Positions 37,135 to 64,000 of a stretch of DNA of 64,000 bases are shown one piece after another. The translations under genes were made by a program, and so were the position numbers. The notes beneath the pieces are model-generated. The model was not told the origin of the DNA. It did not search any database and saw only the letters and a list, made by a program, of their open reading frames with translations. Origin of the DNA: Cinnamomum chago (taxonomy: Eukaryota; Streptophyta; Magnoliopsida; Laurales; Lauraceae); assembly GCA_038049695.1 (NCBI GenBank), contig CP142457.1, positions 22,086,501 through 22,150,500 of the forward strand. Reading direction: 5' to 3'. Numbering within the stretch: position 1 is the stretch's first letter; every line of letters begins with the position of its first letter.

Positions 37135-37146
37135 TGGTATCAGAGC
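37135..37146 (+). other. Primer binding site of the Copia element
   Basis: TGGTATCAGAGC lies one base after the LTR end and is complementary to initiator tRNA-Met, the usual primer of plant Copia elements. Confidence 0.92.
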
Positions 37147-37310
37147 CTAACCATGTGAGATCATGATCCCATGTTGTGTTTTTTACATTCCTAGAATTAT
37201 TAAGGGCATGGTGGCTGCCTATTAGGAGTGCAGAGTTTTCTTTTATGCTGCTGGAATTGCATGAGTTCTAGTGCAGGAATTTCAAAGTGCAGATTTCTGC
37301 ACATTAGTAG

Positions 37311-38640: not shown

Positions 38641-39112
38641 TGTTAGTGGGAGCGGCCATCCCTTCGGTGGAGTTCTTTACTGAAGATCACTTTGATGAAT
38701 TAGTAGGTGAACTAATGTGAATATTCGTAATGAGGTGTTAGTGGGAGCGGCCATCCCTTCGGTGGAGCTCTTTACTAAAGATCACTTCTATAGAATGTCA
38801 ATGAAGCGTTGGTGGGAGCGGCCATCCTTTCGGTGGAGCTCTTTACTAAAGATCACTTCTAGGTTGGATTAAAGTCTCTTCCCTTCGGAAGACTTAAGTC
38901 ATAGACATTCTGGGAACGTTCATAAGAGATGGTAATACACTTGACATAAGACGGTAATAACCTCTCCCTAGGAGTTAGTGTTATTTGTCATATGAGGCCA
39001 AACCAATCAGTGATTGGACCATCACTGGGTATGCGTATTCAGACAGTGATGATCCAAATAAGCAGACCTTAACTCAACGTTACTGTAGGCTCGGCCATCC
39101 CTTCGATGGAGG
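38641..39112 (+). repeat. Spaced leader repeats with core GGCCATCCCTTCG
   Basis: Blocks beginning TGTTAGTGGGAGCGGCCATC occur at 38641 and 38736, with a variant at 38807 (GGTGGGAGCGGCCATCC). Each is followed by CTTTACT(A/G)AAGATCACTT. A fourth, shorter version (TCGGCCATCCCTTCGATGG) lies near 39091. Spacing is about 95, 71 and then roughly 280 bp. Confidence 0.8.
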
Positions 39113-39262
39113 GTCTATGAGGAGGTTGAGACACTGATACATTATTTTAGGGTGAAATAATGTAAAAAGACTTGTGCATGTTTTTCCTTTTATTACAAGC
39201 ACCATATACATGTTACATATATACTGCCTGTCTAATTATAAACCTGTTATATATCCAGAGAG

Positions 39263-41524
39263 ATGGGGAAGGACTCTTTTAGCCCATTGATGAGTATTCT
39301 GCGTGAGAACAAATTGACTGGCCCTAATTACGTAGACTGGAAAAGAAACCTGAACATAGTACTCACCGCTGAGGAGTACAAGTAGGTTCTGTCGGAACCC
39401 TGTCCTTTCATTGATGATTATTCTACAGATGACCAGCTAGAGGCTGAAAAGAAATGGAAAAAGGCTAATAGCATGGCCAAATGTTATATGCTTGCTTCCA
39501 TGTCCAACGTGTTGCAAACGCAGCATGAGCAAATGGACACAGCTGCAGATATCATGTTGTCCTTGTCTGAGATGTTCGCAGACAAAAGCAGGCCAGCTAG
39601 GCAAGCTGCTTTAAGGACAATTATGAATACCAGGATGGCTGAGGGAACACCTGTCAGAGAGCATATGCTCAAGATGATGGATTGTTTCAATGAAGCTGAG
39701 ATCCTTGGGGCTGAGATTGATGCGGGGAGTCAGACTGATATGATTCTAGAAACTCTACCGGAGTCTTTCAACCAGTTCAAGCTCAACTTCAACATGAGCA
39801 AGTTGGACATGACTCTCTCTGAGTTAATGAAAGAACTCCAGGCGGCAGAGGCCATCATGAAGCCTAAAGGCCAAGCTCATTTTTCCCAATCTTCCTCTAA
39901 ACTGAACCCGAAAGGGAAAAAGTTCGAGAAGAAGCAGGGTAAGGGAAAAGGGCAGAAAAAGGGCAATGCTGGTAAGAAGGACAAAGGCACAGGAGAAAAG
40001 CCCAAAGGGAAATGCTTCAAGTGCGGCCTTAAAGGTCACTGGAAGAAAGATTGTCCCAAGCTCCTAGGCTCTGATAAGAAAGGTATATCTCCTTCCTATT
40101 ACATTGAAACCTGTCATGTGGTTGATTCTACTGATTCATGGATAGTAGACTCTGGAGCCACTAATCACATATGCAATTCATTGCAGGGGTTTCAGATAAT
40201 GAAAAGGCTTGAGAAAGGAGAATTTGATCTTAGAGTTGGAAATGGAGCAAAGATATGGGCTGTTGCAGTGGGAGCAGTTACCTTATATTTTCCGCAAAAT
40301 AGGATATTAGTTTTAAATAATGTTATCTATGTTCCGGACATAAGGAAGAATTTAATTTCAGTTTCCAGACTCATTGAATTTAATTATTCAGTTTCTTTCC
40401 ATTCTGGTGTTGATATCGGTAGAGATGGAAATATTATATGTTCCGGTAGAATGCATGATAACTTATTTTATATATATCCTATTGCTCCCTCACTGCACAA
40501 TGTACAACTAGAAAGCTCAGCTTCCCTAAAGAGGAAGGTATCTTCGACCAATGACACTTATCTTTGGCACTTACGTTTGGGTCACATTAACCTAAAACGG
40601 ATTCAGAGGTTGGTGGAGGATGGGCCTTTGAGCTCATTGGATCTCGAACCTTTACCTCAGTATGAATCATGTCTCATGGGAAAGATGACCAAAAGGTCAT
40701 TCTCTGCGAAGGGACTAAGGTCAAAGGAGTTGTTAGAATTGGTTCACACTGATGTGTGTGGTCCTATGAACAAACTAACTAGAGGAGGTTATGAGTATTT
40801 CATCACCTTCACCGATGATTACTCTAGGTATGGATATGTGTACCTAATGCGACGCAAGTCTGAAGCGTTTGATAAGTTCAAACAATTCAAGGCTGAGGCG
40901 GAGCTACAACTAGGGAAACATATCAAAGCTCTTCGATCTGATCGAGGTGGCGAGTACCTCCTGGGTGAGTTCAAGGAGTACCTCACACAACATGGGATTG
41001 TGTCTCAGTTGTCTGCACCGGGTACACCCCAGCAAAATGGTGTAGCGGAGAGAAGAAACCGTACCCTTCTAGATATGGTAAGGTCCATGATGAGTCATGC
41101 AACCCTACCCATATCATTTTGGGGATATGCCCTAGAAGCAGCAGCATACATTTTGAATCTGGTACCTTCTAAATCAGTACCTAGGACACCTCGAGAAATG
41201 TGGACAGGTCGAAAACCTAGTTTAAGACATATCCACATTTGGGGTTGTCCAGCCTATGTACTGAATGACAAAGCTACCAAGCTAGAACCCAGATCAGAAA
41301 TGTGCTACTTCATTGGGTATCCTAAGGGAACGAGAGGTGGCATTTTTTATCATCCAAAGGAGCAAAAGGTGCTTATCAGCACTCATGCTAGATACTTGGA
41401 GGATGATTGCATGATGCGCCAAGAGCTTGGTTGTAAGGAAACCATTGAGGAGATTCTTTCAGAAACTCCTGCAATATCTGTGCCAGATCCTGAGGCTGTA
41501 GAAAATCAAGACATTCCTTTTTAA
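39263..41524 (+). pseudogene. Copia gag-protease-integrase, broken by an early nonsense codon
   Basis: The first in-frame ATG is at 39263. A TAG at 39383-39385 is codon 41, after which the frame stays open to 41524 (about 753 codons in all). Domains in order, numbered from 39263: a gag capsid-like region to about residue 215; a lysine-rich stretch; a CCHC zinc knuckle at 251-264 (C-x2-C-x4-H-x4-C); an aspartic protease DSG at 296-298; an integrase N-terminal region with the two His present, but Tyr at 467 where the family normally has the first Cys; and an integrase core with D497, D560 and E596, the last two separated by 35 residues. Translation could restart at the Met at 39473 but would lose the gag N-terminus. 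The frame ends in a T-run before reverse transcriptase, so no continuous polyprotein is possible. Confidence 0.9.
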
Positions 41525-41534
41525 CACTCCGGAG

Positions 41535-42086
41535 CCTCGTCGTAGTGGGAGAATTTCTAGACCACCAGATAGATACCTAGGAGTGTCTTTTATGACAGAC
41601 TCCGAGGATTTGGTTGAGGATCCTACTAGTTACGATGAAGCAGTAACGGATATAGATGCTGACATGTGGCAGCAAGCAATGAAATCTGAATTGGATTCTC
41701 TGTATTCCAATCAAGTCTGGGAACTTGTGGATGCACCTGAAGGGATCAAACCCATAGGGTGCAAGTGGATCTACAAGAGAAAGAGAGGAGTGGATGGGAA
41801 GGTTGAAACCTTCAAAGCAAGACTGGTGGCGAAAGGGTATACTCAGAAAGAGGGTATCGATTATGAGGAAACCTTTTCACCAGTGGCTATGCTTAAGTCC
41901 ATAAGGATTCTCTTAGCCATTGCATGTCATTATGACTACGAGATATGGCAGATGGATGTCAAGACAGCTTTCCTTAATGGAAGTCTTGACGAATGCATCT
42001 ATATGATGCAACCAGAGGGATTCATTGCTGGTGGCCAAGAGAACATGGTCTGTAAGCTTAAGAAGTCCATTTATGGACTTAAGTAA
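41535..42086 (+). pseudogene. Copia reverse transcriptase, N-terminal part, after a frameshift
   Basis: Pol continues in a different frame (+1 relative to integrase) from about 41535, so a one-base indel lies near the T-run around 41518-41522. The fragment holds the start of the reverse transcriptase fold, with MKSELDSL, the nucleotide-binding region around CKWIYKRKR, and the first catalytic aspartate in MDVKTAFLNG (Asp codon 41955-41957). It ends at a TAA (42084-42086) right after YGLK. The next codons in the same frame continue the conserved domain, so this is a point nonsense mutation and not a natural end. Confidence 0.9.
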
Positions 42087-42835
42087 GCATCTAGGGCATG
42101 GAACATCAAGTTTAATCAGGCAGTCAAATCCTTTGGCTTTGATCAGAACATTGATGAACCATGTGTGTATAAGAAAGGGAGTGGAAACGCAGTTGCATTT
42201 TTAGTCCTGTATGTGGATGACATATTACTCATTGGAAATGATGTTGGCATGATGTCGTCTACAAAGGTTTGGTTATCATCTCAATTTCAGATGAAGGATT
42301 TAGGTGAGGCAAGCTATGTCTTAGGGATCAAGCTTATGCGAGATCGCAAGAACAAGATGTTAGCCTTATCACAATCTTCGTATATTGAGAAGATATTGGT
42401 CAAGTATAACATGCATGACTCCAAGAAGGGCTTGCTACCTTCTAGACATGGAGTACCACTATCTCGGAATCAATGTCCGAAGACACCCGAGGAGATAGAA
42501 AGCATGAGGAGAGTACCATATGCTTCAGCTGTTGGAAGCCTCATGTATGCAATGTTGTGTACTAGACCAGATATCTGCTTTGCCGTTGGCATGGTTAGTA
42601 GATATCAGTCAAACCCTGGACCAATGCACTGGACAACAGTTAAGCATATATTCAAGTATCTTCGGAGAACGAAAGATTATATGCTAACCTACCAAGCAGA
42701 TGATCTAACGCCACAGGCGTATACAGATTCTGATTTCCAGACAGATGTAGATAGCAGAAAGTCTACCTCGGGATACGTCTTTACTCAATCAGGAGGGGCT
42801 ATACCATGGAAGCAGTACATTCTTAGCTGGTAGAG
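42087..42835 (+). pseudogene. Copia reverse transcriptase C-terminal part and truncated RNase H
   Basis: Same frame as the preceding fragment. It carries the catalytic YVDD box (42210-42221) and the connection region, then the start of RNase H with its first acidic motif (YTDSD near 42718-42735) and SRKSTSGYVF. The frame is lost at about 42790-42835 and ends at TAG 42833-42835. The RNase H segment with the remaining catalytic residues is mostly absent, so an internal deletion or rearrangement is likely. Confidence 0.9.
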
Positions 42836-42949
42836 CAGATTGCCTCAGCAGATAACTTAGCTGACCCATTTACTAAGACTCTTACTGAGAAAGTGTTTTC
42901 TTCACATATTGAGTCTATGGGAGTTAGGTTAGGTCGCAGTGATCTTTAG
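42836..42949 (+). pseudogene. C-terminal tail of Copia pol, out of frame
   Basis: A short stretch encoding the typical Copia pol end (ASADNLADPFTK, then SHIESMGVRLG) in a frame different from the RNase H start, ending at TAG 42947-42949. It shows that the true 3' end of pol is present and that the missing RNase H portion was lost internally. Confidence 0.8.
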
Positions 42950-42952
42950 TGC

Positions 42953-42962
42953 AAGTGGGAGA
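42953..42962 (+). other. Polypurine tract of the Copia element
   Basis: AAGTGGGAGA, one base before the 3' LTR start TGTTGGG at 42964. This is the classic plant Copia plus-strand primer and it fixes the LTR boundary. Confidence 0.92.
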
Positions 42963-42963
42963 T

Positions 42964-44942
42964 TGTTGGGATTGGTGTATGCCCTAAAGCCCACTGACTG
43001 CACTTTCATCTCTGTAACTGGATATTTATTGGTTATTTAATGGAATGACATCTTTCTCTTATTACTTGTGTATATGTATGGTTGTATAAGGCCCATTGTT
43101 TTCAAGTAAATGACTTAGGTGTGCAGTGGCTGCACACAGAAAGGTCTGAGTCATGGATATTGGAAACAACTAATTTGTTCATAACTGAGAGGTGGAGTTG
43201 GGCACTTCATCTTGGTATAAGTTATAATGAGAAACTCTCCTATGTTTAGGGTGACTTACCTTAGTCACGGGAGGTCTTTCCCGGATTTATCTCATTAGTG
43301 CATGTGTCATGCATTGAACAGGACCACTTGTAGGTGTGATCTCTAAAATAGTACTATCACAGAGAGAGATCAAATCACCTCTTGCTACTGAGTGACCAGT
43401 GCTCTTAATCTTGAGCATTTGTGGATGAACTGACGAAGTCAAGTTCTTGTACTTTAATTCACTATGGGTGAGATCCTGTTCATGGGTCAACAGCTCTGTG
43501 TTTTGGGTACTCGGGCTTGATTAGTTGGGACGTGCAAATGCAATATGGAATCTATGCCATCGGGAGATGGAATGATCGTCCCCTTAGAATTATCCGATTA
43601 ATCATCAGAATCTAAGATCTTAGTATATGGATGTTCCATATGGATATTGAACTTGTGGGTCGCTCCCTGGATCAAGAGAATGATATCCGGATGATGATTA
43701 GGTCAAGGATATGAAGTTCTAAGGTTAAGACGTAATCGAGAAGGTAGATAGTACATCGGTTAACCTACTTGATTATGGATGTTACATAGAGGGGCATTGT
43801 GGTCATTGTACTTGGTAGGTCAAAGACAATCGTCAATTTATGATGAGCTTAATTGAATTTAATATTTGTCCCTGGAGTGCAACCATAACTCTTTAGTGGA
43901 ATGAGTTAGGGTTAAAATGATCTTAATGTTGCTATGGGGTTAGCATGGACATTTTGGTCATTTTGGGAGCCAAGGGCAAATATGTCTTTTGGTCCCTCTT
44001 CTAGCCACTTTCCTATTTTGGCATGGTTTCCTAATTAGATGAAATGTGATTGAATTAATTTGTGGAAGAATAATTTTGAGTTTAAATTCTAATAGGCTCC
44101 TATGGGCATACATGAATTTAACTCTAGCTAAATTATTGACATGTGGGCCATGGGGTGTTTAGCTACTTTGTGGGCCAGCCATAAGTGGGGTCACATGAGT
44201 GAGGTTTCCAAGTTTGATTAGGCATCTTTACTTGGAAGGCAAGACTCCTCTTTGGGTAAGAATTCCTATCTTTAAGGGTTACTAATTTTAGTATCCTAAT
44301 TTAGTAAGTGTTGCACATCTAAGGGGATTAGTTGCTAATTATTATGAAAAGGTTATTCCTATTTGAAATAGGAATGTAATCTCCATATAATTGGTGCACT
44401 ATCTTGGGCGTGCAATATAGAGTTGCTAAGAGAGAAGGAAAACCCTTGAGGGGCGTGCATCACCATAGGATTTCCCTTGGCCGTCCAAGAGAAGGTTGCA
44501 TAGGATTCACGCCCAAGCCTTTGAGTTGCTGGTTTTTCTTCTTCCTGGAGAGAGAACATCAGCAGCTTTCTTCTCCACAATTAGTGATTCAGAAATCACT
44601 TCTTGGATCCCATACTTTGATCCCACCATCATTGCCAATCAGATTTGGAAGTGGAATAGGAGAGAAGATCAAAGGAGATAAATCTGCACATTAATTCCTG
44701 CACCTGGGTTGTAGATTGCAGGAGGATTTCAGAACCTTAAAGCTTCTTTTTTCAAAGTTTCAGAGCACACAAATCATCAAGGTAATAGATTACTATCTAC
44801 TCCTTGATTTAGGAACATGTTGGTCATGATTTCATGGGTTTACATGCATGATTTAATGGCTGATATCAGACATGGTTTTAAGTTTTTAAAACTCTAATCA
44901 GCCATGTTTATCTCTTTTAAATCTGATATGCATGAACTTTCA
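42964..44942 (+). repeat. 3' LTR of the Copia element (1979 bp)
   Basis: Starts TGTTGGGATTGGTG directly after the polypurine tract and ends AACTTTCA, giving the TG...CA termini of an intact LTR. Satellite resumes with ACCCAAGGTTCG at 44943. This copy shows the full LTR start that is missing from the 5' LTR. Confidence 0.92.
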
Positions 44943-47697
44943 ACCCAAGGTTCGCCCGAAACCCGTTTTAAACCGAAAAGTATATCGAAATATCCTAAAA
45001 GGTGCATCTCAACCCAGAATACCTTCAAATGGATTTCGAGGCGTGAGACAAGAGAAGGACACCCGAAACCCCTTCTATAGTAAAACGTGATCCTGGAATT
45101 TTCTAGAGGGAGTCTTTGGACCAAGAGTCGCATTAAAACACAGTGTAGAGTCAGCCATATTCTCGAGCCGCATAGATTGTGTTTTCGTACTAAAGGACCG
45201 TACGACCCGCACGAAGTTCGGGTTTTCGCCTTTACAAACACTGAACTCCCCGAATGTGTTTTCCTTACCCAAGATTCGCCCGAAACCCGTTTTAAACCGA
45301 AAAGTAGCTCGAAATATCTTAAAGAGCGCATCTCAACCCAGAATCCCTACAAATGGATTTGGAGCCGTAAGGAAAGACAGAGACACCCGAAACCCCATTT
45401 AGAGTAAAACGCAATCCCGGATTTTTCCAAAGGGAGTCTTTGGACCAAGAGTCGCATGAAACACAGTGTTGACTCAACAACTTTCTAGAGCCGCACAGAT
45501 TATGTTTTCGTTCAAAAGTACCGTACGACCCTCGCATGAAGTTCCGGTTTTCGCCCTAGCAAACACTGAACTCCCCGAAAGTGATTTCCACACCCAAGAT
45601 TCACCCAAAACCCGTAGTAAACCGAAGAGTAGCTCGGAATATCCTAAAAATCGCATCTCATCCCAAAATCCCTTCATATGGATTTAGAGGCGTACGATAA
45701 GACAAGGACACCCGAAACCCTTTTTAGTTTAAAACTTGATCCCGGATATTTCTAGATGTTGCCTTTGTACACAGAGTCGCAAGAAACACAGTGTGGAGTT
45801 AACAATTTCCTAGAGCCGCAAAGATTCTGCTTTAGTACAAAAGTATCGTACGTCCCGCGCGAAGTTCGGGTTTTCTCCTTTACAACCAGAGAACTCCCCG
45901 AAAGTGTTTACCATACCCAAGGTTCGCCCGAAACCCGTTTTAAACCGAAAAGTAGCTCGAAATATCCTAAAAGGTGCATCTCAACCCAGAATACCTTCAA
46001 ATGGATTTCGAGGCGTGAGACAAGAGAAGGACACCCGAAACCCCTTCTATAGTAAAACGTGATCCTGGAATTTTCTAGAGGGAGTCTTTGGACCAAGAGT
46101 CGCATTAAAACACAGTGTAGAGTCAACCATATTCTCGAGCCGCATAGATTGTGTTTTCATACTAAAGGACCGTACGACCCGCACGAAGTACGGGTTTTCG
46201 CCTTTACAAACACTGAACTCCCCGAATGTGTTTTCCTTACCCAAGATTCGCCCGAAACCCGTTTTAAACCGAAAAGTAGCTCGAAATATCTTAAAGAGCG
46301 CATCTCAACCCAGAATCCCTTCAAATGGATTTGGAGCCGTAAGGAAAGACAAAGACACCCGAAACCCCATTTAGAGTAAAACGCAATCCCGGATTTTTCC
46401 AAAGGGAGTCTTTGGACCAAGAGTCGCATGAAACACAGTGTTGACTCAACAACTTTCTAGAGCCGCACAGATTATGTTTTCGTTCAAAAGTACCGTACGA
46501 CCCTCGCATGAAGTTCCGGTTTTCGCCCTAGCAAACACTGAACTCCCCGAAAGTGATTTCCACACCCAAGATTCACCCAAAACCCGTAGTAAACCGAAGA
46601 GTAGCTCGGAATATCCTAAAAATCGCATCTCATCCCAAAATCCCTTCATATGGATTTAGAGGCGTACGATAAGACAAGACACCCGAAACCCTTTTTAGTT
46701 TAAAACTTGATCCCGGATATTTCTAGATGTTGCCTTTGTACACAGAGTCGCAAGAAACACAGTGTGGAGTGAATAATTTCCTAGAGCCGCAAAGATTCTG
46801 CTTTAGTACAAAAGTATCGTACGTCCCGCGCGAAGTTCGGTTTTTCTCCTTTACAACCAGAGAACTCCCCGAAAGTGTTTACCATACCCAAGGTTCGCCC
46901 GAAACCCGTTTTAAACCGAAAAGTATCTCGAAATATCCTAAAAGGTGCATCTCAACCCAGAATACCTTCAAATGGATTTCGAGGCGTGAGACAAGAGAAG
47001 GACACCCGAAACCCCTTCTATAGTAAAACGTGATCCTGGAATTTTCTAGAGGGAGTCTTTGGACCAAGAGTCGCATTAAAACACAGTGTAGAGTCAGCCA
47101 TATTCTCGAGCCGCATAGATTGTGTTTTCGTACTAAAGGACCGTACGACCCGCACGAAGTTCGGGTTTTCGCCTTTACAAACACTGAACTCCCCGAATGT
47201 GTTTTCCTTACCCAAGATTCGCCCGAAACCCGTTTTAAACCGAAAAGTAGCTCGAAATATCTTAAAGAGCGCATCTCAACCCAGAATCCCTACAAATGGA
47301 TTTGGAGCCGTAAGGAAAGACAGAGACACCCGAAACCCCATTTAGAGTAAAACGCAATCCCGGATTTTTCCAAAGGGAGTCTTTGGACCAAGAGTCGCAT
47401 GAAACACAGTGTTGACTCAACAACTTTCTAGAGCCGCACAGATTATGTTTTCGTTCAAAAGTACCGTACGACCCTCGCAAGAAGTTCCGGTTTTCGCCCT
47501 AGCAAACACTGAACTCCTCGAAAGTGATTTCCACACCCAAGATTCACCCGAAACCCGTAGTAAACCGAAGAGTAGCTCGGAATATCCTAAAAATCGCATC
47601 TCATCCCAAAATCCCAAATATGGATTTAGAGACGTACGATAAGACAAGGACACCCGAAAACCTTTTTATTTTAAAACTTGATCCCGGATATTTCTAG

Positions 47698-50600
47698 ATG
47701 TTGCCTTTGTACACAGAGTCGCAAGAAACACAGTGTGGAGTTAACAATTTCCTAGAGCCGCAAAGATTCTGCTTTAGTACAAAAGTATCGTACGTCCCGC
47801 GCGAAGTTCGGGTTTTCTCCTTTACAACCAGAGAACTCCCCGAAAGTGTTTACTATACCCAAGGTTCGCCCGAAACCCGTTTTAAACCGAAAAGTAGCTC
47901 GAAATATCCTAAAAGATGCATCTCAACCCAGAATACCTTCAAATGGATTTCGAGGCGTGAGACAAGAGAAGGACACCTGAAACCCCTTCTATAGTAAAAC
48001 GTGATCCTGGAATTTTCTAGAGGGAGTCTTTGGACCAAGAGTCGCATTAAAACACAGTGTAGAGTCAGCCATATTCTCGAGCCGTATAGATTGTGTTTTC
48101 GTACTAAAGGACCGTACGACCCGCACGAAGTACGGGTTTTCGCCTTTACAAACACTGAACTCCCCGAATGTGTTTTCCTTACCCAAGATTCGCCCGAAAC
48201 CCGTTTTAAACCGAAAAGTAGCTCGAAATATCTTAAAGAGCGCATCTCAACCCAGAATCCCTTCAAATGGATTTGGAGCCGTAAGGAAAGACAGAGACAC
48301 CCGAAACCCCATTTAGAGTAAAACGCAATCCCGGATTTTTCCAAAGGGAGTCTTTGGTCCAAGAGTCACATGAAACACAGTGTTGACTCAACAACTTTCT
48401 AGAGCCGCATAGATTATTTTTTCGTTCAAAAGTACCGTACGACCCTCGCATGAAGTTCCGATTTTCGCCCTAGCAAACACTGAACTCCTCGAAAGTGATT
48501 TCCACACCCAAGATTCACCCGAAACCCGTAGTAAACCGAAGAGTAGCTCGGAATATCCTAAAAATCGCATCTCATCCCAAAATCCCTTAATATGGATTTA
48601 GAGGCGTACGATAAGACAAGGACAGCCGAAACCCTTTTTATTTTAAAACTTGATCCCGGATATTTCTAGATGTTGCCCTTTTACACAGAGTCGCAAGAAA
48701 CACAGTGTGGAGTCAACAATTACCTAGAGCCGCAAAGATTCTGCTTCAGTACAAAAGTATCGTACGTCCCGCGCGAAGTTCGGGTTTTCCCCTTTACAAC
48801 CAGAGAACTCCCCGAAAGTGTTTACTATACCCAAGGTTCGCCCGAAACCCGTTTTAAACCGAAAAGTAGCTCGAAATATCCTAAAAGGTGCATCTCAACC
48901 CAGAATACCTTCAAATGGATTTCGAGGCGTGAGACAAGAGAAGGACACCCGAAACCCCTTCTATAGTAAAACGTGATCCTGGAATTTTCTAGAGGGAGTC
49001 TTTGGACCAAGAGTCGCATTAAAACACAGTGTAGAGTCAGCCATATTCTCGAGCCGTATAGATTGTGTTTTCGTACTAAAGGACCGTACGACCCGCACGA
49101 AGTACGGGTTTTCGCCTTTACAAACACTGAACTCCCCGAATGTGTTTTCCTTACCCAAGATTCGCCCGAAACCCGTTTTAAACCGAAAAGTAGCTCGAAA
49201 TATCTTAAAGAGCGCATCTCAACCCAGAATCCCTTCAAATGGATTTGGAGCCGTAAGGAAAGACAGAGACACCCGAAACCCCATTTAGAGTAAAACGCAA
49301 TCCCGGATTTTTCCAAAGGGAGTCTTTGGACCAAGAGTCACATGAAACACAGTGTTGACTCAACAACTTTCTAGAGCCGCACAGATTATGTTTTCGTTCA
49401 AAAGTACCGTACGACCCTCGCATGAAGTTTCGGTTTTCGCCCTAGCAAACACTGAACTCCTCGAAAGTGATTTCCACACCCAAGATTCACCCGAAACCCG
49501 TAGTAAACCGAAGAGTAGCTCGGAATATCCTAAAAATCGCATCTCATCCCAAAATCCCAAAATATGGATTTAGAGACGTACGATAAGACAAGGACACCCG
49601 AAAACCTTTTTATTTTAAAACTTGATCCCGGATATTTCTAGATGCTGCCTTTGTACACAGAGTCGCAAGAAACACAGTGTGGAGTTAACAATTTCCTAGA
49701 GCCGCAAAGATTCTGCTTTAGTACAAAAGTATCGTACGTCCCGCGCGAAGTTCGGGTTTTCTCCTTTACAACCAGAGAACTCCCCGAAAGTGTTTACTAT
49801 ACCCAAGGTTCGCCCGAAACCCGTTTTAAACCGAAAAGCAGCTCGAAATATCCTAAAAGGTGCATCTCAACCCAGAATACCTTCAAATGGATTTCGAGGC
49901 GTGAGACAAGAGAAGGACACCCGAAACCCCTTCTATAGTAAAACGTGATCCTGGAATTTTCTAGAGAGAGTCTTTGGACCAAGAGTCGCATTAAAACACA
50001 GTGTAGTGTCAGCCATATTCTCGAGCCGCATAGATTGTGTTTTCGTACTAAAGGACCGTACGACCCGCACGAAGTTCGGGTTTTCGCCTTTACAAACACT
50101 GAACTCCCCGAATGTGTTTTCCTTACCCAAGATTCACCCGAAACCCGTTTTAAACCGAAAAGTAGCTCGAAATATCTTAAAGAGCGCATCTCAACCCAGA
50201 ATCCCTACAAATGGATTTGGAGGCGTAAGGAAAGACAGAGACACCTGAAACCCCATTTAGAGTACAACGCAATCCCGGATTTTTCCAAAGGGAGTCTTTG
50301 GACCAAGAGTCGCATGAAACACAGTGTTGACTCCACAACTTTCTAGAGCCGCACAGATTATGTTTTCGTTCAAAAGTACCGTACGACCCTCGCATGAAGT
50401 TCCGGTTTTCGCCCTAGCAAACACTGAACTCCCCGAAAGTGATTTCCACACTCAAGATTCACCCGAAACCCGTAGTAAACCGAAGAGTAGCTCGGAATAT
50501 CCTAAAAATCGCATCTCATCCCAAAATCCCTTAATATGGATTTAGAGGCGTACGATAAGACAAGGACACCCGAAACCCTTTTTATTTTAAAACTTGATCC

Positions 50601-51260
50601 CGGATATTTCTAGATGTTGCCTTTGTACACAGAGTCGCAAGAAACACAGTGTGGAGTTAACAATTTCCTAGAGCCGCAAAGATTCTGCTTTAGTACAAAA
50701 GTATCGTACGTCCCGCGCGAAGTTCGGGTTTTCTCCTTTACAACCAGAGAACTCCCCGAAAGTGTTTACCATACCCAAGGTTCGCCCGAAACCCGTTTTA
50801 AACCGAAAAGTAGCTCGAAATATCCTAAAAGGTGCATCTCAACCAAGAATACCTTCAAATGGATTTCGAGGCGTGAGACAAGAGAAGGACACCCGAAACC
50901 CCTTCTACAGTAAAACGTGATCCTGGAATTTTCTAGAGGAGTCTTTGGACCAAGAGTCGCATGAAACACAGTGTTGACTCAACAACTTTCTAGAGCCGCA
51001 CAGATTATGTTTTCGTTCAAAAGTACCGTACGACCCTCGCATGAAGTTCCGGTTTTCGCCCTAGCAAACACTGAACTCCTCGAAAGTGATTTCCACACCC
51101 AAGATTCACCCGAAACCCGTAGTAAACCGAAGAGTAGCTCGGAATATCCTAAAAATCGCATCTCATCCCAAAATCCCAAAATATGGATTTAGAGACGTAC
51201 GATAAGACAAGGACACCCGAAAACCTTTTTATTTTAAAACTTGATCCCGGATATTTCTAG
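47698..51260. repeat. Super-repeat unit 1 of array III (11 monomers, 3563 bp)
   Basis: Four sub-units, here called P (47698), Q (48670), R (49642) and S' (50614, a dimer). Markers: P has TCTTTGGTCCAAGAGTCAC in its C monomer; Q begins ATGTTGCCCTTTTACAC with CAATTACC; R has AAAAGCAGCTCG and GTGTAGTGTCAGCC, with GACTCCACAAC in its C; S' has CTCAACCAAGAATACC and TAGAGGAGTC. All recur in the same order in the next three units. Confidence 0.85.
50614..51260. repeat. 647-bp dimer with B/C hybrid monomer
   Basis: A complete A monomer is followed by a monomer that starts as B (ACGTGATCCTGGAATTTTC) and switches to C (GCATGAAACACAGTG) within the shared 24-bp block at 50939-50962. This breakpoint differs from that of the A/B dimers in array II, so the two dimer types arose independently. 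It carries the one-base deletion TAGAGGAGTC. Confidence 0.85.
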
Positions 51261-54200
51261 ATGTTGCCTTTGTACACAGAGTCGCAAGAAACACAGTGTG
51301 GAGTTATCAATTTCCTAGAGCCGCAAAGATTCTGCTTTAGTACAAAAGTATCGTACGTCCCGCGCGAAGTTCGGGTTTTCTCCTTTACAACCAGAGAACT
51401 CCCCGAAAGTGTTTACTATACCCAAGGTTCGCCCGAAACCCGTTTTAAACCGAAAAGTAGCTCGAAATATCCTAAAAGGTGCATCTCAACCCAGAATACC
51501 TTCAAATGGATTTCGAGGCGTGAGACAAGAGAAGGACACCTGAAACCCCTTCTATAGTAAAACGTGATCCTGGAATTTTCTAGAGGGAGTCTTTGGACCA
51601 AGAGTCGCATTAAAACACAGTGTAGAGTCAGCCATATTCTCGAGCCGTATAGATTGTGTTTTCGTACTAAAGGACCGTACGACCCGCACGAAGTACGGGT
51701 TTTCGCCTTTACAAACACTGAACTCCCCGAATGTGTTTTCCTTACCCAAGATTCGCCCGAAACCCGTTTTAAACCGAAAAGTAGCTCGAAATATCTTAAA
51801 GAGCGCATCTCAACCCAGAATCCCTTCAAATGGATTTGGAGCCGTAAGGAAAGACAGAGACACCCGAAACCCCATTTAGAGTAAAACGCAATCCCGGATT
51901 TTTCCAAAGGGAGTCTTTGGTCCAAGAGTCACATGAAACACAGTGTTGACTCAACAACTTTCTAGAGCCGCATAGATTATTTTTTCGTTCAAAAGTACCG
52001 TACGACCCTCGCATGAAGTTCCGATTTTCGCCCTAGCAAACACTGAACTCCTCGAAAGTGATTTCCACACCCAAGATTCACCCGAAACCCGTAGTAAACC
52101 GAAGAGTAGCTCGGAATATCCTAAAAATCGCATCTCATCCCAAAATCCCTTAATATGGATTTAGAGGCGTACGATAAGACAAGGACAGCCGAAACCCTTT
52201 TTATTTTAAAACTTGATCCCGGATATTTCTAGATGTTGCCCTTTTACACAGAGTCGCAAGAAACACAGTGTGGAGTCAACAATTACCTAGAGCCGCAAAG
52301 ATTCTGCTTTAGTACAAAAGTATCGTACGTCCCGCGCGAAGTTCGGGTTTTCTCCTTTACAACCAGAGAACTCCCCGAAAGTGTTTACTATACCCAAGGT
52401 TCGCCCGAAACCCGTTTTAAACCGAAAAGTAGCTCGAAATATCCTAAAAGGTGCATCTCAACCCAGAATACCTTCAAATGGATTTCGAGGCGTGAGACAA
52501 GAGAAGGACACCCGAAACCCCTTCTATAGTAAAACGTGATCCTGGAATTTTCTAGAGGGAGTCTTTGGACCAAGAGTCGCATTAAAACACAGTGTAGAGT
52601 CAGCCATATTCTCGAGCCGTATAGATTGTGTTTTCGTACTAAAGGACCGTACGACCCGCACGAAGTACGGGTTTTCGCCTTTACAAACACTGAACTCCCC
52701 GAATGTGTTTTCCTTACCCAAGATTCGCCCGAAACCCGTTTTAAACCGAAAAGTAGCTCGAAATATCTTAAAGAGCGCATCTCAACCCAGAATCCCTTCA
52801 AATGGATTTGGAGCCGTAAGGAAAGACAGAGACACCCGAAACCCCATTTAGAGTAAAACGCAATCCCGGATTTTTCCAAAGGGAGTCTTTGGACCAAGAG
52901 TCACATGAAACACAGTGTTGACTCAACAACTTTCTAGAGCCGCACAGATTATGTTTTCGTTCAAAAGTACCGTACGACCCTCGCATGAAGTTTCGGTTTT
53001 CGCCCTAGCAAACACTGAACTCCTCGAAAGTGATTTCCACACCCAAGATTCACCCGAAACCCGTAGTAAACCGAAGAGTAGCTCGGAATATCCTAAAAAT
53101 CGCATCTCATCCCAAAATCCCAAAATATGGATTTAGAGACGTACGATAAGACAAGGACACCCGAAAACCTTTTTATTTTAAAACTTGATCCCGGATATTT
53201 CTAGATGTTGCCTTTGTACACAGAGTCGCAAGAAACACAGTGTGGAGTTAACAATTTCCTAGAGCCGCAAAGATTCTGCTTTAGTACAAAAGTATCGTAC
53301 GTCCCGCGCGAAGTTCGGGTTTTCTCCTTTACAACCAGAGAACTCCCCGAAAGTGTTTACTATACCCAAGGTTCGCCCGAAACCCGTTTTAAACCGAAAA
53401 GCAGCTCGAAATATCCTAAAAGGTGCATCTCAACCCAGAATACCTTCAAATGGATTTCGAGGCGTGAGACAAGAGAAGGACACCCGAAACCCCTTCTATA
53501 GTAAAACGTGATCCTGGAATTTTCTAGAGGGAGTCTTTGGACCAAGAGTCGCATTAAAACACAGTGTAGTGTCAGCCATATTCTCGAGCCGCATAGATTG
53601 TGTTTTCGTACTAAAGGACCGTACGACCCGCACGAAGTTCGGGTTTTCGCCTTTACAAACACTGAACTCCCCGAATGTGTTTTCCTTACCCAAGATTCAC
53701 CCGAAACCCGTTTTAAACCGAAAAGTAGCTCGAAATATCTTAAAGAGCGCATCTCAACCCAGAATCCCTACAAATGGATTTGGAGGCGTAAGGAAAGACA
53801 GAGACACCTGAAACCCCATTTAGAGTACAACGCAATCCCGGATTTTTCCAAAGGGAGTCTTTGGACCAAGAGTCGCATGAAACACAGTGTTGACTCCACA
53901 ACTTTCTAGAGCCGCACAGATTATGTTTTCGTTCAAAAGTACCGTACGACCCTCGCATGAAGTTCCGGTTTTCGCCCTAGCAAACACTGAACTCCCCGAA
54001 AGTGATTTCCACACTCAAGATTCACCCGAAACCCGTAGTAAACCGAAGAGTAGCTCGGAATATCCTAAAAATCGCATCTCATCCCAAAATCCCTTAATAT
54101 GGATTTAGAGGCGTACGATAAGACAAGGACACCCGAAACCCTTTTTATTTTAAAACTTGATCCCGGATATTTCTAGATGTTGCCTTTGTACACAGAGTCG

Positions 54201-55147
54201 CAAGAAACACAGTGTGGAGTTAACAATTTCCTAGAGCCGCAAAGATTCTGCTTTAGTACAAAAGTATCGTACGTCCCGCGCGAAGTTCGGGTTTTCTCCT
54301 TTACAACCAGAGAACTCCCCGAAAGTGTTTACCATACCCAAGGTTCGCCCGAAACCCGTTTTAAACCGAAAAGTAGCTCGAAATATCCTAAAAGGTGCAT
54401 CTCAACCAAGAATACCTTCAAATGGATTTCGAGGCGTGAGACAAGAGAAGGACACCCGAAACCCCTTCTACAGTAAAACGTGATCCTGGAATTTTCTAGA
54501 GGAGTCTTTGGACCAAGAGTCGCATTAAAACACAGTGTAGAGTCAACCATATTCTCGAGCCGCATAGATTGTGTTTTCATACTAAAGGACCGTACGACCC
54601 GCACGAAGTACGGGTTTTCGCCTTTACAAACACTGAACTCCCCGAATGTGTTTTCCTTACCCAAGATTCGCCCGAAACCCGTTTTAAACCGAAAAGTAGC
54701 TCGAAATATCTTAAAGAGCGCATCTCAACCCAGAATCCCTACAAATGGATTTGGAGCCGTAAGGAAAGACAGAGACACCCGAAACCCCATTTAGAGTAAA
54801 ACGCAATCCCGGATTTTTCCAAAGGGAGTCTTTGGACCAAGAGTCGCATGAAACACAGTGTTGACTCAACAACTTTCTAGAGCCGCACAGATTATGTTTT
54901 CGTTCAAAAGTACCGTACGACCCTCGCATGAAGTTCCGGTTTTCGCCCTAGCAAACACTGAACTCCTCGAAAGTGATTTCCACACCCAAGATTCACCCGA
55001 AACCCGTAGTAAACCGAAGAGTAGCTCGGAATATCATAAAAATCGCATCTCATCCCAAAATCCCAAAATATGGATTTAGAGACGTACGATAAGACAAGGA
55101 CACCCGAAAACCTTTTTATTTTAAAACTTGATCCCGGATATTTCTAG
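51261..55147. repeat. Super-repeat unit 2 of array III (12 monomers, 3887 bp)
   Basis: Order P-Q-R-S, with S (54177) a full trimer instead of the dimer S'. The P-Q-R part matches unit 1 except for a few private substitutions, e.g. GGAGTTATCAATTTCC at about 51300 here, GTTTTCCCCTTTAC near 48786 and CTAGAGAGAGTC near 49960 in unit 1. Confidence 0.85.
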
Positions 55148-58100
55148 ATGTTGCCTTTGTACACAGAGTCGCAAGAAACACAGTGTGGAGTTAACAATTT
55201 CCTAGAGCCGCAAAGATTCTGCTTTAGTACAAAAGTATCGTACGTCCCGCGCGAAGTTCGGGTTTTCTCCTTTACAACCAGAGAACTCCCCGAAAGTGTT
55301 TACTATACCCAAGGTTCGCCCGAAACCCGTTTTAAACCGAAAAGTAGCTCGAAATATCCTAAAAGGTGCATCTCAACCCAGAATACCTTCAAATGGATTT
55401 CGAGGCGTGAGAGAAGAGAAGGACACCTGAAACCCCTTCTATAGTAAAACGTGATCCTGGAATTTTCTAGAGGGAGTCTTTGGACCAAGAGTCGCATTAA
55501 AACACAGTGTAGAGTCAGCCATATTCTCGAGCCGTATAGATTGGGTTTTCGTACTAAAGGACCGTACGACCCGCACGAAGTACGGGTTTTCGCCTTTACA
55601 AACACTGAACTCCCCGAATGTGTTTTCCTTACCCAAGATTCGCCCGAAACCCGTTTTAAACCGAAAAGTAGCTCGAAATATCTTAAAGAGCGCATCTCAA
55701 CCCAGAATCCCTTCAAATGGATTTGGAGCCGTAAGGAAAGACAGAGACACCCGAAACCCCATTTAGAGTAAAACGCAATCCCGGATTTTTCCAAAGGGAG
55801 TCTTTGGTCCAAGAGTCACATGAAACACAGTGTTGACTCAACAACTTTCTAGAGCCGCATAGATTATTTTTTCGTTCAAAAGTACCGTACGACCCTCGCA
55901 TGAAGTTCCGATTTTCGCCCTAGCAAACGCTGAACTCCTCGAAAGTGATTTCCACACCCAAGATTCACCCGAAACCCGTAGTAAACCGAAGAGTAGCTCG
56001 GAATATCCTAAAAATCGCATCTCATCCCAAAATCCCTTAATATGGATTTAGAGGCGTACGATAAGACAAGGACAGCCGAAACCCTTTTTATTTTAAAACT
56101 TGATCCCGGATATTTCTAGATGTTGCCCTTTTACACAGAGTCGCAAGAAACACAGTGTGGAGTCAACAATTACCTAGAGCCGCAAAGATTCTGCTTTAGT
56201 ACAAAAGTATCGTACGTCCCGCGCGAAGTTCGGGTTTTCTCCTTTACAACCAGAGAACTCCCCGAAAGTGTTTACTATACCCAAGGTTCGCCCGAAACCC
56301 GTTTTAAACCGAAAAGTAGCTCGAAATATCCTAAAAGGTGCATCTCAACCCAGAATACCTTCAAATGGATTTCGAGGCGTGAGACAAGAGAAGGACACCC
56401 GAAACCCCTTCTATAGTAAAACGTGATCCTGGAATTTTCTAGAGGGAGTCTTTGGACCAAGAGTCGCATTAAAACACAGTGTAGAGTCAGCCATATTCTC
56501 GAGCCGTATAGATTGTGTTTTCGTACTAAAGGACCGTACGACCCGCACGAAGTACGGGTTTTCGCCTTTACAAACACTGAACTCCCCGAATGTGTTTTCC
56601 TTACCCAAGATTCGCCCGAAACCCGTTTTAAACCGAAAAGTAGCTCGAAATATCTTAAAGAGCGCATCTCAACCCAGAATCCCTTCAAATGGATTTGGAG
56701 CCGTAAGGAAAGACAGAGACACCCGAAACCCCATTTAGAGTAAAACGCAATCCCGGATTTTTCCAAAGGGAGTCTTTGGACCAAGAGTCACATGAAACAC
56801 AGTGTTGACTCAACAACTTTCTAGAGCCGCACAGATTATGTTTTCGTTCAAAAGTACCGTACGACCCTCGCATGAAGTTTCGGTTTTCGCCCTAGCAAAC
56901 ACTGAACTCCTCGAAAGTGATTTCCACACCCAAGATTCACCCGAAACCCGTAGTAAACCGAAGAGTAGCTCGGAATATCCTAAAAATCGCATCTCATCCC
57001 AAAATCCCAAAATATGGATTTAGAGACGTACGATAAGACAAGGACACCCGAAAACCTTTTTATTTTAAAACTTGATCCCGGATATTTCTAGATGTTGCCT
57101 TTGTACACAGAGTCGCAAGAAACACAGTGTGGAGTTAACAATTTCCTAGAGCCGCAAAGATTCTGCTTTAGTACAAAAGTATCGTACGTCCCGCGCGAAG
57201 TTCGGGTTTTCTCCTTTACAACCAGAGAACTCCCCGAAAGTGTTTACTATACCCAAGGTTCGCCCGAAACCCGTTTTAAACCGAAAAGCAGCTCGAAATA
57301 TCCTAAAAGGTGCATCTCAACCCAGAATACCTTCAAATGGATTTCGAGGCGTGAGACAAGAGAAGGACACCCGAAACCCCTTCTATAGTAAAACGTGATC
57401 CTGGAATTTTCTAGAGGGAGTCTTTGGACCAAGAGTCGCATTAAAACACAGTGTAGTGTCAGCCATATTCTCGAGCCGCATAGATTGTGTTTTCGTACTA
57501 AAGGACCGTACGACCCGCACGAAGTTCGGGTTTTCGCCTTTACAAACACTGAACTCCCCGAATGTGTTTTCCTTACCCAAGATTCACCCGAAACCCGTTT
57601 TAAACCGAAAAGTAGCTCGAAATATCTTAAAGAGCGCATCTCAACCCAGAATCCCTACAAATGGATTTGGAGGCGTAAGGAAAGACAGAGACACCTGAAA
57701 CCCCATTTAGAGTACAACGCAATCCCGGATTTTTCCAAAGGGAGTCTTTGGACCAAGAGTCGCATGAAACACAGTGTTGACTCCACAACTTTCTAGAGCC
57801 GCACAGATTATGTTTTCGTTCAAAAGTACCGTACGACCCTCGCATGAAGTTCCGGTTTTCGCCCTAGCAAACACTGAACTCCCCGAAAGTGATTTCCACA
57901 CTCAAGATTCACCCGAAACCCGTAGTAAACCGAAGAGTAGCTCGGAATATCCTAAAAATCGCATCTCATCCCAAAATCCCTTAATATGGATTTAGAGGCG
58001 TACGATAAGACAAGGACACCCGAAACCCTTTTTATTTTAAAACTTGATCCCGGATATTTCTAGATGTTGCCTTTGTACACAGAGTCGCAAGAAACACAGT

Positions 58101-59681
58101 GTGGAGTTAACAATTTCCTAGAGCCGCAAAGATTCTGCTTTAGTACAAAAGTATCGTACGTCCCGCGCGAAGTTCGGGTTTTCTCCTTTACAACCAGAGA
58201 ACTCCCCGAAAGTGTTTACCATACCCAAGGTTCGCCCGAAACCCGTTTTAAACCGAAAAGTAGCTCGAAATATCCTAAAAGGTGCATCTCAACCAAGAAT
58301 ACCTTCAAATGGATTTCGAGGCCTGAGACAAGAGAAGGACACCCGAAACCCCTTCTACAGTAAAACGTGATCCTGGAATTTTCTAGAGGAGTCTTTGGAC
58401 CAAGAGTCGCATTAAAACACAGTGTAGAGTCAACCATATTCTCGAGCCGCATAGATTGTGTTTTCATACTAAAGGACCGTACGACCCGCACGAAGTACGG
58501 GTTTTCGCCTTTACAAACACTGAACTCCCCGAATGTGTTTTCCTTACCCAAGATTCGCCCGAAACCCGTTTTAAACCGAAAAGTAGCTCGAAATATCTTA
58601 AAGAGCGCATCTCAACCCAGAATCCCTACAAATGGATTTGGAGCCGTAAGGAAAGACAGAGACACCCGAAACCCCATTTAGAGTAAAACGCAATCCCGGA
58701 TTTTTCCAAAGGGAGTCTTTGGACCAAGAGTCGCATGAAACACAGTGTTGACTCCACAACTTTCTAGAGCCGCACAGATTATGTTTTCGTTCAAAAGTAC
58801 CGTACGACCCTCGCATGAAGTTCCGGTTTTCGCCCTAGCAAACACTGAACTCCCCGAAAGTGATTTCCACACTCAAGATTCACCCGAAACCCGTAGTAAA
58901 CCGAAGAGTAGCTCGGAATATCCTAAAAATCGCATCTCATCCCAAAATCCCTTAATATGGATTTAGAGGCGTACGATAAGACAAGGACACCCGAAACCCT
59001 TTTTATTTTAAAACTTGATCCCGGATATTTCTAGATGTTGCCTTTGTACACAGAGTCGCAAGAAACACAGTGTGGAGTTAACAATTTCCTAGAGCCGCAA
59101 AGATTCTGCTTTAGTACAAAAGTATCGTACGTCCCGCGCGAAGTTCGGGTTTTCTCCTTTACAACCAGAGAACTCCCCGAAAGTGTTTACCATACCCAAG
59201 GTTCGCCCGAAACCCGTTTTAAACCGAAAAGTAGCTCGAAATATCCTAAAAGGTGCATCTCAACCAAGAATACCTTCAAATGGATTTCGAGGCGTGAGAC
59301 AAGAGAAGGACACCCGAAACCCCTTCTACAGTAAAACGTGATCCTGGAATTTTCTAGAGGAGTCTTTGGACCAAGAGTCGCATGAAACACAGTGTTGACT
59401 CAACAACTTTCTAGAGCCGCATAGATTATGTTTTCGTTCAAAAGTACCGTACGACCCTCGCATGAAGTTCCGGTTTTCGCCCTAGCAAACACTGAACTCC
59501 TCGAAAGTGATTTCCACACCCAAGATTCACCCGAAACCCGTAGTAAACCGAAGAGTAGCTCGGAATATCCTAAAAATCGCATCTCATCCCAAAATCCCAA
59601 AATATGGATTTAGAGACGTACGATAAGACAAGGACACCCGAAAACCTTTTTATTTTAAAACTTGATCCCGGATATTTCTAG
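55148..59681. repeat. Super-repeat unit 3 of array III (14 monomers, 4534 bp)
   Basis: Order P-Q-R-S-S'. It holds both a full S-type trimer (58064) and the dimer S' (59035). The S-type trimer carries the C variant GACTCCACAAC that R also has, which points to the exchange that added the extra block. Private changes include GATTGGGTTTTCG near 55540 and GAGGCCTGAGAC near 58320. Confidence 0.85.
59035..59681. repeat. 647-bp dimer with B/C hybrid monomer (second copy)
   Basis: Same B/C junction and same TAGAGGAGTC deletion as the dimer at 50614. It descends from the same recombination event and was spread by block duplication. Confidence 0.85.
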
Positions 59682-62600
59682 ATGTTGCCTTTGTACACAG
59701 AGTCGCAAGAAACACAGTGTGGAGTTAACAATTTCCTAGAGCCGCAAAGATTCTGCTTTAGTACAAAAGTATCGTACGTCCCGCGCGAAGTTCGGGTTTT
59801 CTCCTTTACAACCAGAGAACTCCCCGAAAGTGTTTACTATACCCAAGGTTCGCCCGAAACCCGTTTTAAACCGAAAAGTAGCTCGAAATATCCTAAAAGG
59901 TGCATCTCAACCCAGAATACCTTCAAATGGATTTCGAGGCGTGAGACAAGAGAAGGACACCTGAAACCCCTTCTATAGTAAAACGTGATCCTGGAATTTT
60001 CTAGAGGGAGTCTTTGGACCAAGAGTCGCATTAAAACACAGTGTAGAGTCAGCCATATTCTCGAGCCGTATAGATTGTGTTTTCGTACTAAAGGACCGTA
60101 CGACCCGCACGAAGTACGGGTTTTCGCCTTTACAAACACTGAACTCCCCGAATGTGTTTTCCTTACCCAAGATTCGCCCGAAACCCGTTTTAAACCGAAA
60201 AGTAGCTCGAAATATCTTAAAGAGCGCATCTCAACCCAGAATCCCTTCAAATGGATTTGGAGCCGTAAGGAAAGACAGAGACACCCGAAACCCCATTTAG
60301 AGTAAAACGCAATCCCGGATTTTTCCAAAGGGAGTCTTTGGTCCAAGAGTCACATGAAACACAGTGTTGACTCAACAACTTTCTAGAGCCGCATAGATTA
60401 TTTTTTCGTTCAAAAGTACCGTACGACCCTCGCATGAAGTTCCGATTTTCGCCCTAGCAAACACTGAACTCCTCGAAGGTGATTTCCACACCCAAGATTC
60501 ACCCGAAACCCGTAGTAAACCGAAGAGTAGCTCGGAATATCCTAAAAATCGCATCTCATCCCAAAATCCCTTAATATGGATTTAGAGGCGTACGATAAGA
60601 CAAGGACAGCCGAAACCCTTTTTATTTTAAAACTTGATCCCGGATATTTCTAGATGTTGCCCTTTTACACAGAGTCGCAAGAAACACAGTGTGGAGTCAA
60701 CAATTACCTAGAGCCGCAAAGATTCTGCTTTAGTACAAAAGTATCGTACGTCCCGCGCGAAGTTCGGGTTTTCTCCTTTACAACCAGAGAACTCCCCGAA
60801 AGTGTTTACTATACCCAAGGTTCGCCCGAAACCCGTTTTAAACCGAAAAGTAGCTCGAAATATCCTAAAAGGTGCATCTCAACCCAGAATACCTTCAAAT
60901 GGATTTCGAGGCGTGAGACAAGAGAAGGACACCCGAAACCCCTTCTATAGTAAAACGTGATCCTGGAATTTTCTAGAGGGAGTCTTTGGACCAAGAGTCG
61001 CATTAAAACACAGTGTAGAGTCAGCCATATTCTCGAGCCGTATAGATTGTTTTTTCGTACTAAAGGACCGTACGACCCGCACGAAGTACGGGTTTTCGCC
61101 TTTACAAACACTGAACTCCCCGAATGTGTTTTCCTTACCCAAGATTCGCCCGAAACCCGTTTTAAACCGAAAAGTAGCTCGAAATATCTTAAAGAGCGCA
61201 TCTCAACCCAGAATCCCTTCAAATGGATTTGGAGCCGTAAGGAAAGACAGAGACACCCGAAACCCCATTTAGAGTAAAACGCAATCCCGGATTTTTCCAA
61301 AGGGAGTCTTTGGACCAAGAGTCACATGAAACACAGTGTTGACTCAACAACTTTCTAGAGCCGCACAGATTATGTTTTCGTTCAAAAGTACCGTACGACC
61401 CTCGCATGAAGTTTCGGTTTTCGCCCTAGCAAACACTGAACTCCTCGAAAGTGATTTCCACACCCAAGATTCACCCGAAACCCGTAGTAAACCGAAGAGT
61501 AGCTCGGAATATCCTAAAAATCGCATCTCATCCCAAAATCCCAAAATATGGATTTAGAGACGTACGATAAGACAAGGACACCCGAAAACCTTTTTATTTT
61601 AAAACTTGATCCCGGATATTTCTAGATGTTGCCTTTGTACACAGAGTCGCAAGAAACACAGTGTGGAGTTAACAATTTCCTAGAGCCGCAAAGATTCTGC
61701 TTTAGTACAAAAGTATCGTACGTCCCGCGCGAAGTTCGGGTTTTCTCCTTTACAACCAGAGAACTCCCCGAAAGTGTTTACTATACCCAAGGTTCGCCCG
61801 AAACCCGTTTTAAACCGAAAAGCAGCTCGAAATATCCTAAAAGGTGCATCTCAACCCAGAATACCTTCAAATGGATTTCGAGGCGTGAGACAAGAGAAGG
61901 ACACCCGAAACCCCTTCTATAGTAAAACGTGATCCTGGAATTTTCTAGAGGGAGTCTTTGGACCAAGAGTCGCATTAAAACACAGTGTAGTGTCAGCCAT
62001 ATTCTCGAGCCGCATAGATTGTGTTTTCGTACTAAAGGACCGTACGACCCGCACGAAGTTCGGGTTTTCGCCTTTACAAACACTGAACTCCCCGAATGTG
62101 TTTTCCTTACCCAAGATTCACCCGAAACCCGTTTTAAACCGAAAAGTAGCTCGAAATATCTTAAAGAGCGCATCTCAACCCAGAATCCCTACAAATGGAT
62201 TTGGAGGCGTAAGGAAAGACAGAGACACCTGAAACCCCATTTAGAGTACAACGCAATCCCGGATTTTTCCAAAGGGAGTCTTTGGACCAAGAGTCGCATG
62301 AAACACAGTGTTGACTCCACAACTTTCTAGAGCCGCACAGATTATGTTTTCGTTCAAAAGTACCGTACGACCCTCGCATGAAGTTCCGGTTTTCGCCCTA
62401 GCAAACACTGAACTCCCCGAAAGTGATTTCCACACTCAAGATTCACCCGAAACCCGTAGTAAACCGAAGAGTAGCTCGGAATATCCTAAAAATCGCATCT
62501 CATCCCAAAATCCCTTAATATGGATTTAGAGGCGTACGATAAGACAAGGACACCCGAAACCCTTTTTATTTTAAAACTTGATCCCGGATATTTCTAGATG

Positions 62601-63568
62601 TTGCCTTTGTACACAGAGTCGCAAGAAACACAGTGTGGAGTTAACAATTTCCTAGAGCCGCAAAGATTCTGCTTTAGTACAAAAGTATCGTACGTCCCGC
62701 GCGAAGTTCGGGCTTTCTCCTTTACAACCAGAGAACTCCCCGAAAGTGTTTACCATACCCAAGGTTCGCCCGAAACCCGTTTTAAACCGAAAAGTAGCTC
62801 GAAATATCCTAAAAGGTGCATCTCAACCAAGAATACCTTCAAATGGATTTCGAGGCGTGAGACAAGAGAAGGACACCCGAAACCCCTTCTACAGTAAAAC
62901 GTGATCCTGGAATTTTCTAGAGGAGTCTTTGGACCAAGAGTCGCATTAAAACACAGTGTAGAGTCAACCATATTCTCGAGCCGCATAGATTGTGTTTTCA
63001 TACTAAAGGACCGTACGACCCGCACGAAGTACGGGTTTTCGCCTTTACAAACACTGAACTCCCCGAATGTGTTTTCCTTACCCAAGATTCGCCCGAAACC
63101 CGTTTTAAACCGAAAAGTAGCTCGAAATATCTTAAAGAGCGCATCTCAACCCAGAATCCCTACAAATGGATTTGGAGCCGTAAGGAAAGACAGAGACACC
63201 CGAAACCCCATTTAGAGTAAAATGCAATCCCGGATTTTTCCAAAGGGAGTCTTTGGACCAAGAGTCGCATGAAACACAGTGTTGACTCAACAACTTTCTA
63301 GAGCCGCACAGATTATGTTTTCGTTCAAAAGTACCGTACGACCCTCGCATGAAGTTCCGGTTTTCGCCCTAGCAAACACTGAACTCCCCGAAAGTGATTT
63401 CCACACCCAAGATTCACCCAAAACCCGTAGTAAACCGAAGAGTAGCTCGGAATATCCTAAAAATCGCATCTCATCCCAAAATCCCTTCATATGGATTTAG
63501 AGGCGTACGATAAGACAAGGACACCCGAAACCCTTTTTACTTTAAAACTTGATCCCGGATATTTCTAG
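59682..63568. repeat. Super-repeat unit 4 of array III (12 monomers, 3887 bp)
   Basis: Order P-Q-R-S. After it the array returns at 63569 to a trimer with GTGAATAATTTCC and TTCGGTTTTTCTCC, the variant that also precedes unit 1 at 46727. The P-Q-R-S block is thus bounded on both sides by the same trimer type. Confidence 0.8.
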
Positions 63569-64000
63569 ATGTTGCCTTTGTACACAGAGTCGCAAGAAAC
63601 ACAGTGTGGAGTGAATAATTTCCTAGAGCCGCAAAGATTCTGCTTTAGTACAAAAGTATCGTACGTCCCACGCGAAGTTCGGTTTTTCTCCTTTACAACC
63701 AGAGAACTCCCCGAAAGTGTTTACCATACCCAAGGTTCGCCCGAAACCCGTTTTAAACCGAAAAGTATCTCGAAATATCCTAAAAGGTGCATCTCAACCC
63801 AGAATACCTTCAAATAGATTTCGAGGCGTGAGACAAGAGAAGGACACCCGAAACCCCTTCTATAGTAAAACGTGATCCTGGAATTTTCTAGAGGGAGTCT
63901 TTAGACCAAGAGTCGCATTAAAACACAGTGTAGAGTCAGCCATATTCTCGAGCCGCATAGATTGTGTTTTCGTACTAAAGGACCGTATGACCCGCACGAA

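Follow-up and report, generated by a model that had tools for sequence, protein, structure and literature searches.

Four recently amplified super-repeat blocks in a trimeric 324-bp satellite array of Cinnamomum chago and the exchange steps that may have built them

The window analysed here, a stretch of 64,000 nucleotides from the Cinnamomum chago assembly GCA_038049695.1 (contig CP142457.1, positions 22,086,501 to 22,150,500 of the forward strand), is occupied by a head-to-tail satellite in three stretches that are interrupted by two long terminal repeat (LTR) retrotransposons. The satellite stretches, all on the plus strand, lie at 1–8553, at 16800–35166, where an older and more diverged tier of super-repeats is found, and at 44943–64000, where head-to-tail monomers form mostly A-B-C trimers and the satellite continues past the end of the window. 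The monomer measures about 324 bp, and the 140 full monomers (322–325 bp) belong to three types, A (48), B (44) and C (48), whose usual order A-B-C forms a 972-bp trimeric higher-order repeat (HOR). The plus strand carries all 145 monomer profile hits of the whole window, and mean divergence is 18.6–21.4% between types versus 2.3–3.4% within a type; the single orientation and the divergence pattern are both those of an HOR array. The array is presumably centromeric. CpG dinucleotides are undepleted in all three satellite stretches (observed/expected 1.18–1.20), with values of 0.23 and 0.32 in the two transposons. Sub-repeats inside the monomer were rejected, the best self-match being 16 bp, and a snoRNA match at 48272–48363, which at 24.3 bits stays below the cut-off of 48 (E = 0.29), was taken as a chance match and not as an RNA gene in the monomer.

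The first LTR element (8554–16799) carries LTRs of 2895 bp that differ by 1 mismatch and apparently lies on the minus strand, an orientation read by eye from a purine tract next to an LTR. The one open reading frame tested in this element gave no Pfam match, and a target-site duplication was looked for and none was seen. The phase of the satellite jumps across the element, as though the latter had been involved in a recombination, and the last sites of the B monomer at 8236–8557 turn C-like right at its left edge. The second element (35167–44942), a Ty1/copia element by Pfam, has LTRs of 1969 bp with 3 mismatches and sits inside one A monomer; no target-site duplication was seen around it, and the empty site lacks 3 bp.

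The super-repeats of the second stretch have lags of 4537 and 6481 bp, and their monomers show 0–11 differences each. Part of this older tier is an A/B hybrid monomer followed by a C monomer, located on the plus strand at 18485–18807 with copies at 23022 and 29503. The switch from A to B in the hybrid falls at columns 171–214, which is the longest run of identity between A and B (44 bp in one of the two pairs compared, 40 bp in the other). It seems that homologous exchange was building tiers in this array at that earlier stage too.

The third stretch contains four plus-strand blocks with the common order P-Q-R-(S), which start at 47698, 51261, 55148 and 59682 and follow one another without gaps up to 63568. 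Their lengths of 3563, 3887, 4534 and 3887 bp, equivalent to 11, 12, 14 and 12 monomers, reproduce those given in a preceding sequence-only reading of the locus. Block 1 (47698–51260) consists of the trimers P, Q and R followed by A_S and C6, with one B monomer missing, and block 2 (51261–55147) of P, Q and R followed by A_S, B_S and C6. In block 3 (55148–59681), P, Q and R are followed by A_S, B_S and C_R and then by a further A_S and C6, while block 4 (59682–63568) ends with A_S, B_S and a background-like C monomer. As in cascading, or multi-tier, HORs, the larger tandem unit includes more than one copy of a monomer type. Across the third stretch, 40-mers recur most often at a lag of 8421 bp, the offset of blocks 1 and 2 against blocks 3 and 4; among the 11 variable sites examined in the PQR part, none supports a fourth tier with this arrangement.

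The P, Q and R trimers cluster by type. Copies of the same type show 0–4 differences per 972 bp in all 18 pairs, compared with 16–26 differences in all 48 pairs of different types, and label shuffles were as tight in 4 of 20,000 trials, about 3.5 being expected from relabelling alone. The 26 ABC trimers that lie outside the blocks form 325 pairs, none of which comes as close as 4 differences (minimum 5, mean 25). In a maximum-likelihood tree of the block trimers and 12 of these 26 outside trimers, the support values are 100/98 for P, 99/96 for Q, 100/99 for R and 74/88 for the three full S trimers; the clustering of copies by type that had earlier been proposed as a test is thus borne out on whole trimers for P, Q and R, with weaker support for S. 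A tree restricted to the A and B monomers groups S (99/96), R (100/99) and P (93/84), with Q reaching only 76/0.

The PQR part common to all blocks comprises 2916 bp and contains 11 variable sites, divided 5, 1, 3 and 2 over blocks 1–4. The odd allele is limited to one block at every one of these sites and occurs in none of the 29–32 background monomers per type. The S-region monomers add five private sites and no shared ones, with four of the five odd alleles missing from the background and that in B_S of block 4 present in one of 29 background B monomers. The resulting set of 16 sites (11 PQR and 5 S-region) excludes the base that opens the A_S|C6 junction (column 0), common to blocks 1 and 3, because it is part of that junction. 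Private variation amounts to about 0.09% per block over the PQR part, close to the 0.1% first estimated by eye, and the mean PQR difference between blocks is 0.19%, compared with 2.57% between ABC trimers outside them. The kept order, the exclusively private variants and this low divergence agree with the original proposal of a very recent amplification that copied segments of several kilobases and not single monomers. With assumed substitution rates, the blocks would be about 70–135 thousand years old and the transposons 13–25 (TE1) and 59–109 (TE2) thousand years old, estimates that are rough because of gene conversion.

S had been described as a trimer type that ends each block, a description that fits its A and B monomers, each of one type, and fails for its C monomers, which have three origins. 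A_S begins the S region of every block (five copies, 0–2 differences), and B_S, where present, is nearly invariant (three copies, 0–1 differences). The C monomer after A_S and B_S resembles C6 in block 2, equals the C of R in the first S trimer of block 3 and is background-like in block 4; A_S is followed directly by C6, with no B, in block 1 and at the end of block 3. The S and S' classes are mosaics. The last C monomer of block 4 (63245–63569, plus strand) shows 1 difference from the C monomers at 31770 and 45432 and probably belongs to the right flank; since it matches the surrounding array, the copied domain would end near 63244 and not at 63568.

Every join keeps the monomer register, the monomers within the stretches measuring 322–325 bp, which is consistent with homologous exchange. 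The block region is bordered by two C monomers, one in the left flank (47375–47698, plus strand) and one in the right flank at 63245, which differ by 8 substitutions and by one site deleted in the left one. The junction C equals the left-edge monomer at all 7 of the informative substitutions from column 146 on and the right-edge monomer at column 107, and it likely derives from an exchange between these two bordering monomers. This parentage is likely rather than certain, because several C monomers match equally well: 4 of the 32 C monomers outside the blocks (1757, 32742, 33714 and 47375) equal it at all 7 sites, as do Q's own C monomers within the blocks, and for its 3' part the monomer at 33714 fits better than the left flank (0 versus 1 difference). 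If the bordering C monomers are the parents, the founding exchange took place between column -214 (a position of the B monomer) and C column 145, an interval of about 360 columns that contains the two longest identity runs of this pair (192 and 128 bp); the site separating the two runs varies in block 4 only.

Two further junctions are placed more narrowly. The A_S|C6 junction in block 1, where one B monomer is missing, lies within 26 bp (50938–50963, plus strand), and the loss sits in a 24-bp identity run, a 44-bp run existing elsewhere in the monomer. In the 14-monomer block, a switch from block-2-like to block-1-like sequence occurs within a 69-bp interval (58687–58755, plus strand), which is the third-longest identity run available and not the longest. 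A composite of a block 2 prefix and a block 1 suffix reproduces block 3 with 6 mismatches in 4534 bp.

The blocks are quite probably the newest layer of the array, built by stepwise, in-register homologous exchange of a segment of about 12 monomers. Tandem duplication of this segment (P, Q, R, A_S, B_S and C; 3.9 kb) would have proceeded by in-register exchange, for which its two terminal C monomers are the simplest partners, and four copies would have been reached within a short time. One copy may then have lost a B monomer through exchange at a short B/C identity tract, yielding the 11-mer, and an exchange between a 12-mer and the 11-mer with an offset of one trimer could have generated the 14-mer. 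The founding C pair, the direction, number and order of the steps, and the partners involved (sister chromatids or homologues) are what we infer in this scheme. This route takes 6 mismatches for block 3 and 7 for block 1 from block 2, and others fit nearly as well: derivation of block 2 from block 3 by deletion gives 7 mismatches and of block 1 from block 3 by deletion 9, with a poorer fit of 13 for block 4 from block 3. The five private PQR variants of block 1 are neutral with respect to the 14-mer route, because they are located before the part that block 1 would have given to block 3. The duplications had initially been regarded as inferable from the order and lengths of the blocks; the single-nucleotide variants form a star and give no order of duplication, and the A|C junction common to blocks 1 and 3 ties these two together.

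Because the variants of the four blocks shape a star tree, an origin of all copies in a single step has to be weighed, through rolling-circle synthesis from a 12-mer excised as a circle or through replication repair with repeated template switching, with re-insertion by homology and unequal exchange only trimming the product afterwards. Derived variants common to two blocks number 0 of 11 in the PQR part and 0 of 16 with the S region, inner branches carry at most 24% (11 sites) or 17% (16 sites) of the mutations at the 95% upper bound, and coalescent-like simulations of successive duplications yield zero shared variants in 2.5% and 1.0% of runs, respectively. These figures point only weakly to a short burst, because the null of the simulation is idealised; the sites are also few, and gene conversion is ignored. 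A circle would leave the same sort of junction C, so that this monomer accords with it as well. The unequal block lengths (11, 12, 14 and 12 monomers) would nevertheless require later exchange, and the A_S|C6 junction common to blocks 1 and 3 indicates that there were probably at least two rounds. A single-step origin is considered unlikely. Doubtful, too, is the broader proposal that the four blocks arose in one multi-copy burst in place of stepwise crossing over and that junctions in this array tend to fall where monomer types share identity tracts, the trimer HOR itself thereby steering the site of the next, larger tier.

It is improbable that the arrangement is an artefact in which the assembler duplicated or mis-ordered blocks and the true copy number is lower or higher. 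Blocks 2 and 3 share exact matches of up to 2393 bp, which are difficult for short or noisy reads, but simple repetition of a copy would produce neither the private variants of each block (5, 1, 3 and 2 in the PQR part) nor its own tail, and the older, more diverged super-repeats of the second stretch also speak against it. Selection maintaining a functional 12-mer unit, for instance for kinetochore chromatin, is very improbable: the undepleted CpG content of the satellite relative to the transposons is indirect evidence at best, whereas the block lengths vary, the unit is observed only at this place, and CENP-B box patterns found no match in the third stretch for three of four, the fourth being a bare TTCG whose 159 matches are too short to count.

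Stepwise in-register exchange remains the preferred reading, under which the blocks are a clear and well-resolved case of a known process, the ordinary way in which such arrays grow. The array is young enough for one stretch to show separate duplication steps through their candidate parents, their junctions and their by-products. The junctions can be placed within 26 bp (B loss), 69 bp (14-mer) and, if the bordering C monomers were the parents, about 360 columns (founding junction), and stepwise exchange and a burst are therefore testable against each other on other haplotypes.

Several leads to a related satellite were considered. Five satellite fragments searched in literature texts gave no match, which does not mean that the satellite is unpublished, and a 324-bp satellite was not found in the accessible portions of the literature on Vaccinium, potato and Salicaceae, the occurrences of "324" and "325" displayed for the last falling in a reference list. 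A lead to Atriplex as the source of a 325-bp satellite proved, in the excerpt available, to be a chance match to "3,325 bp", and a trypanosome PCR paper that matched on length terms was not kept. The B-chromosome satellite of Plantago lagopus is described, in the portion available, as 325 bp long and similar to 5S rDNA (PMC6410184); a satellite of this type was rejected here, no 5S rRNA match appearing up to E = 1 in 44943–49700. In hop (Humulus lupulus), the excerpts of one study list the centromere-associated satellites Saaz293 (323 bp) and Saaz40 (324 bp) (PMC12371157, Table 1), report a higher-order array structure on chromosome 2 and state that the higher-order repeats found in most plants are missing from hop centromeres (PMC12371157). 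The likeness to Saaz293 and Saaz40, as far as these excerpts go, is one of monomer length alone (323–324 bp versus 322–325 bp here).

With respect to architecture, parallels are available. The consulted sections of earlier work describe layered expansion for human arrays (PMC12046899) and report HORs for the poplar satellite Palv156 and for Arabidopsis satellites (PMC12046899, PMC13232507). Alpha satellite, Arabidopsis CEN178 and poplar Palv156 are, according to these sections, likewise made of head-to-tail monomers in higher-order copies; the comparison is one of architecture and not of sequence, the present array having 324-bp monomers and a trimer as its basic unit. For human centromeres, multi-tier "cascading" HORs are on record from chromosome 15 (PMC11050224, excerpted text). 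As here, their unit repeats a monomer type, with subfragments and variant copies, according to the same excerpt (PMC11050224); the C. chago blocks differ in that only four copies are in view, each of 11–14 monomers, in a setting of LTR elements.
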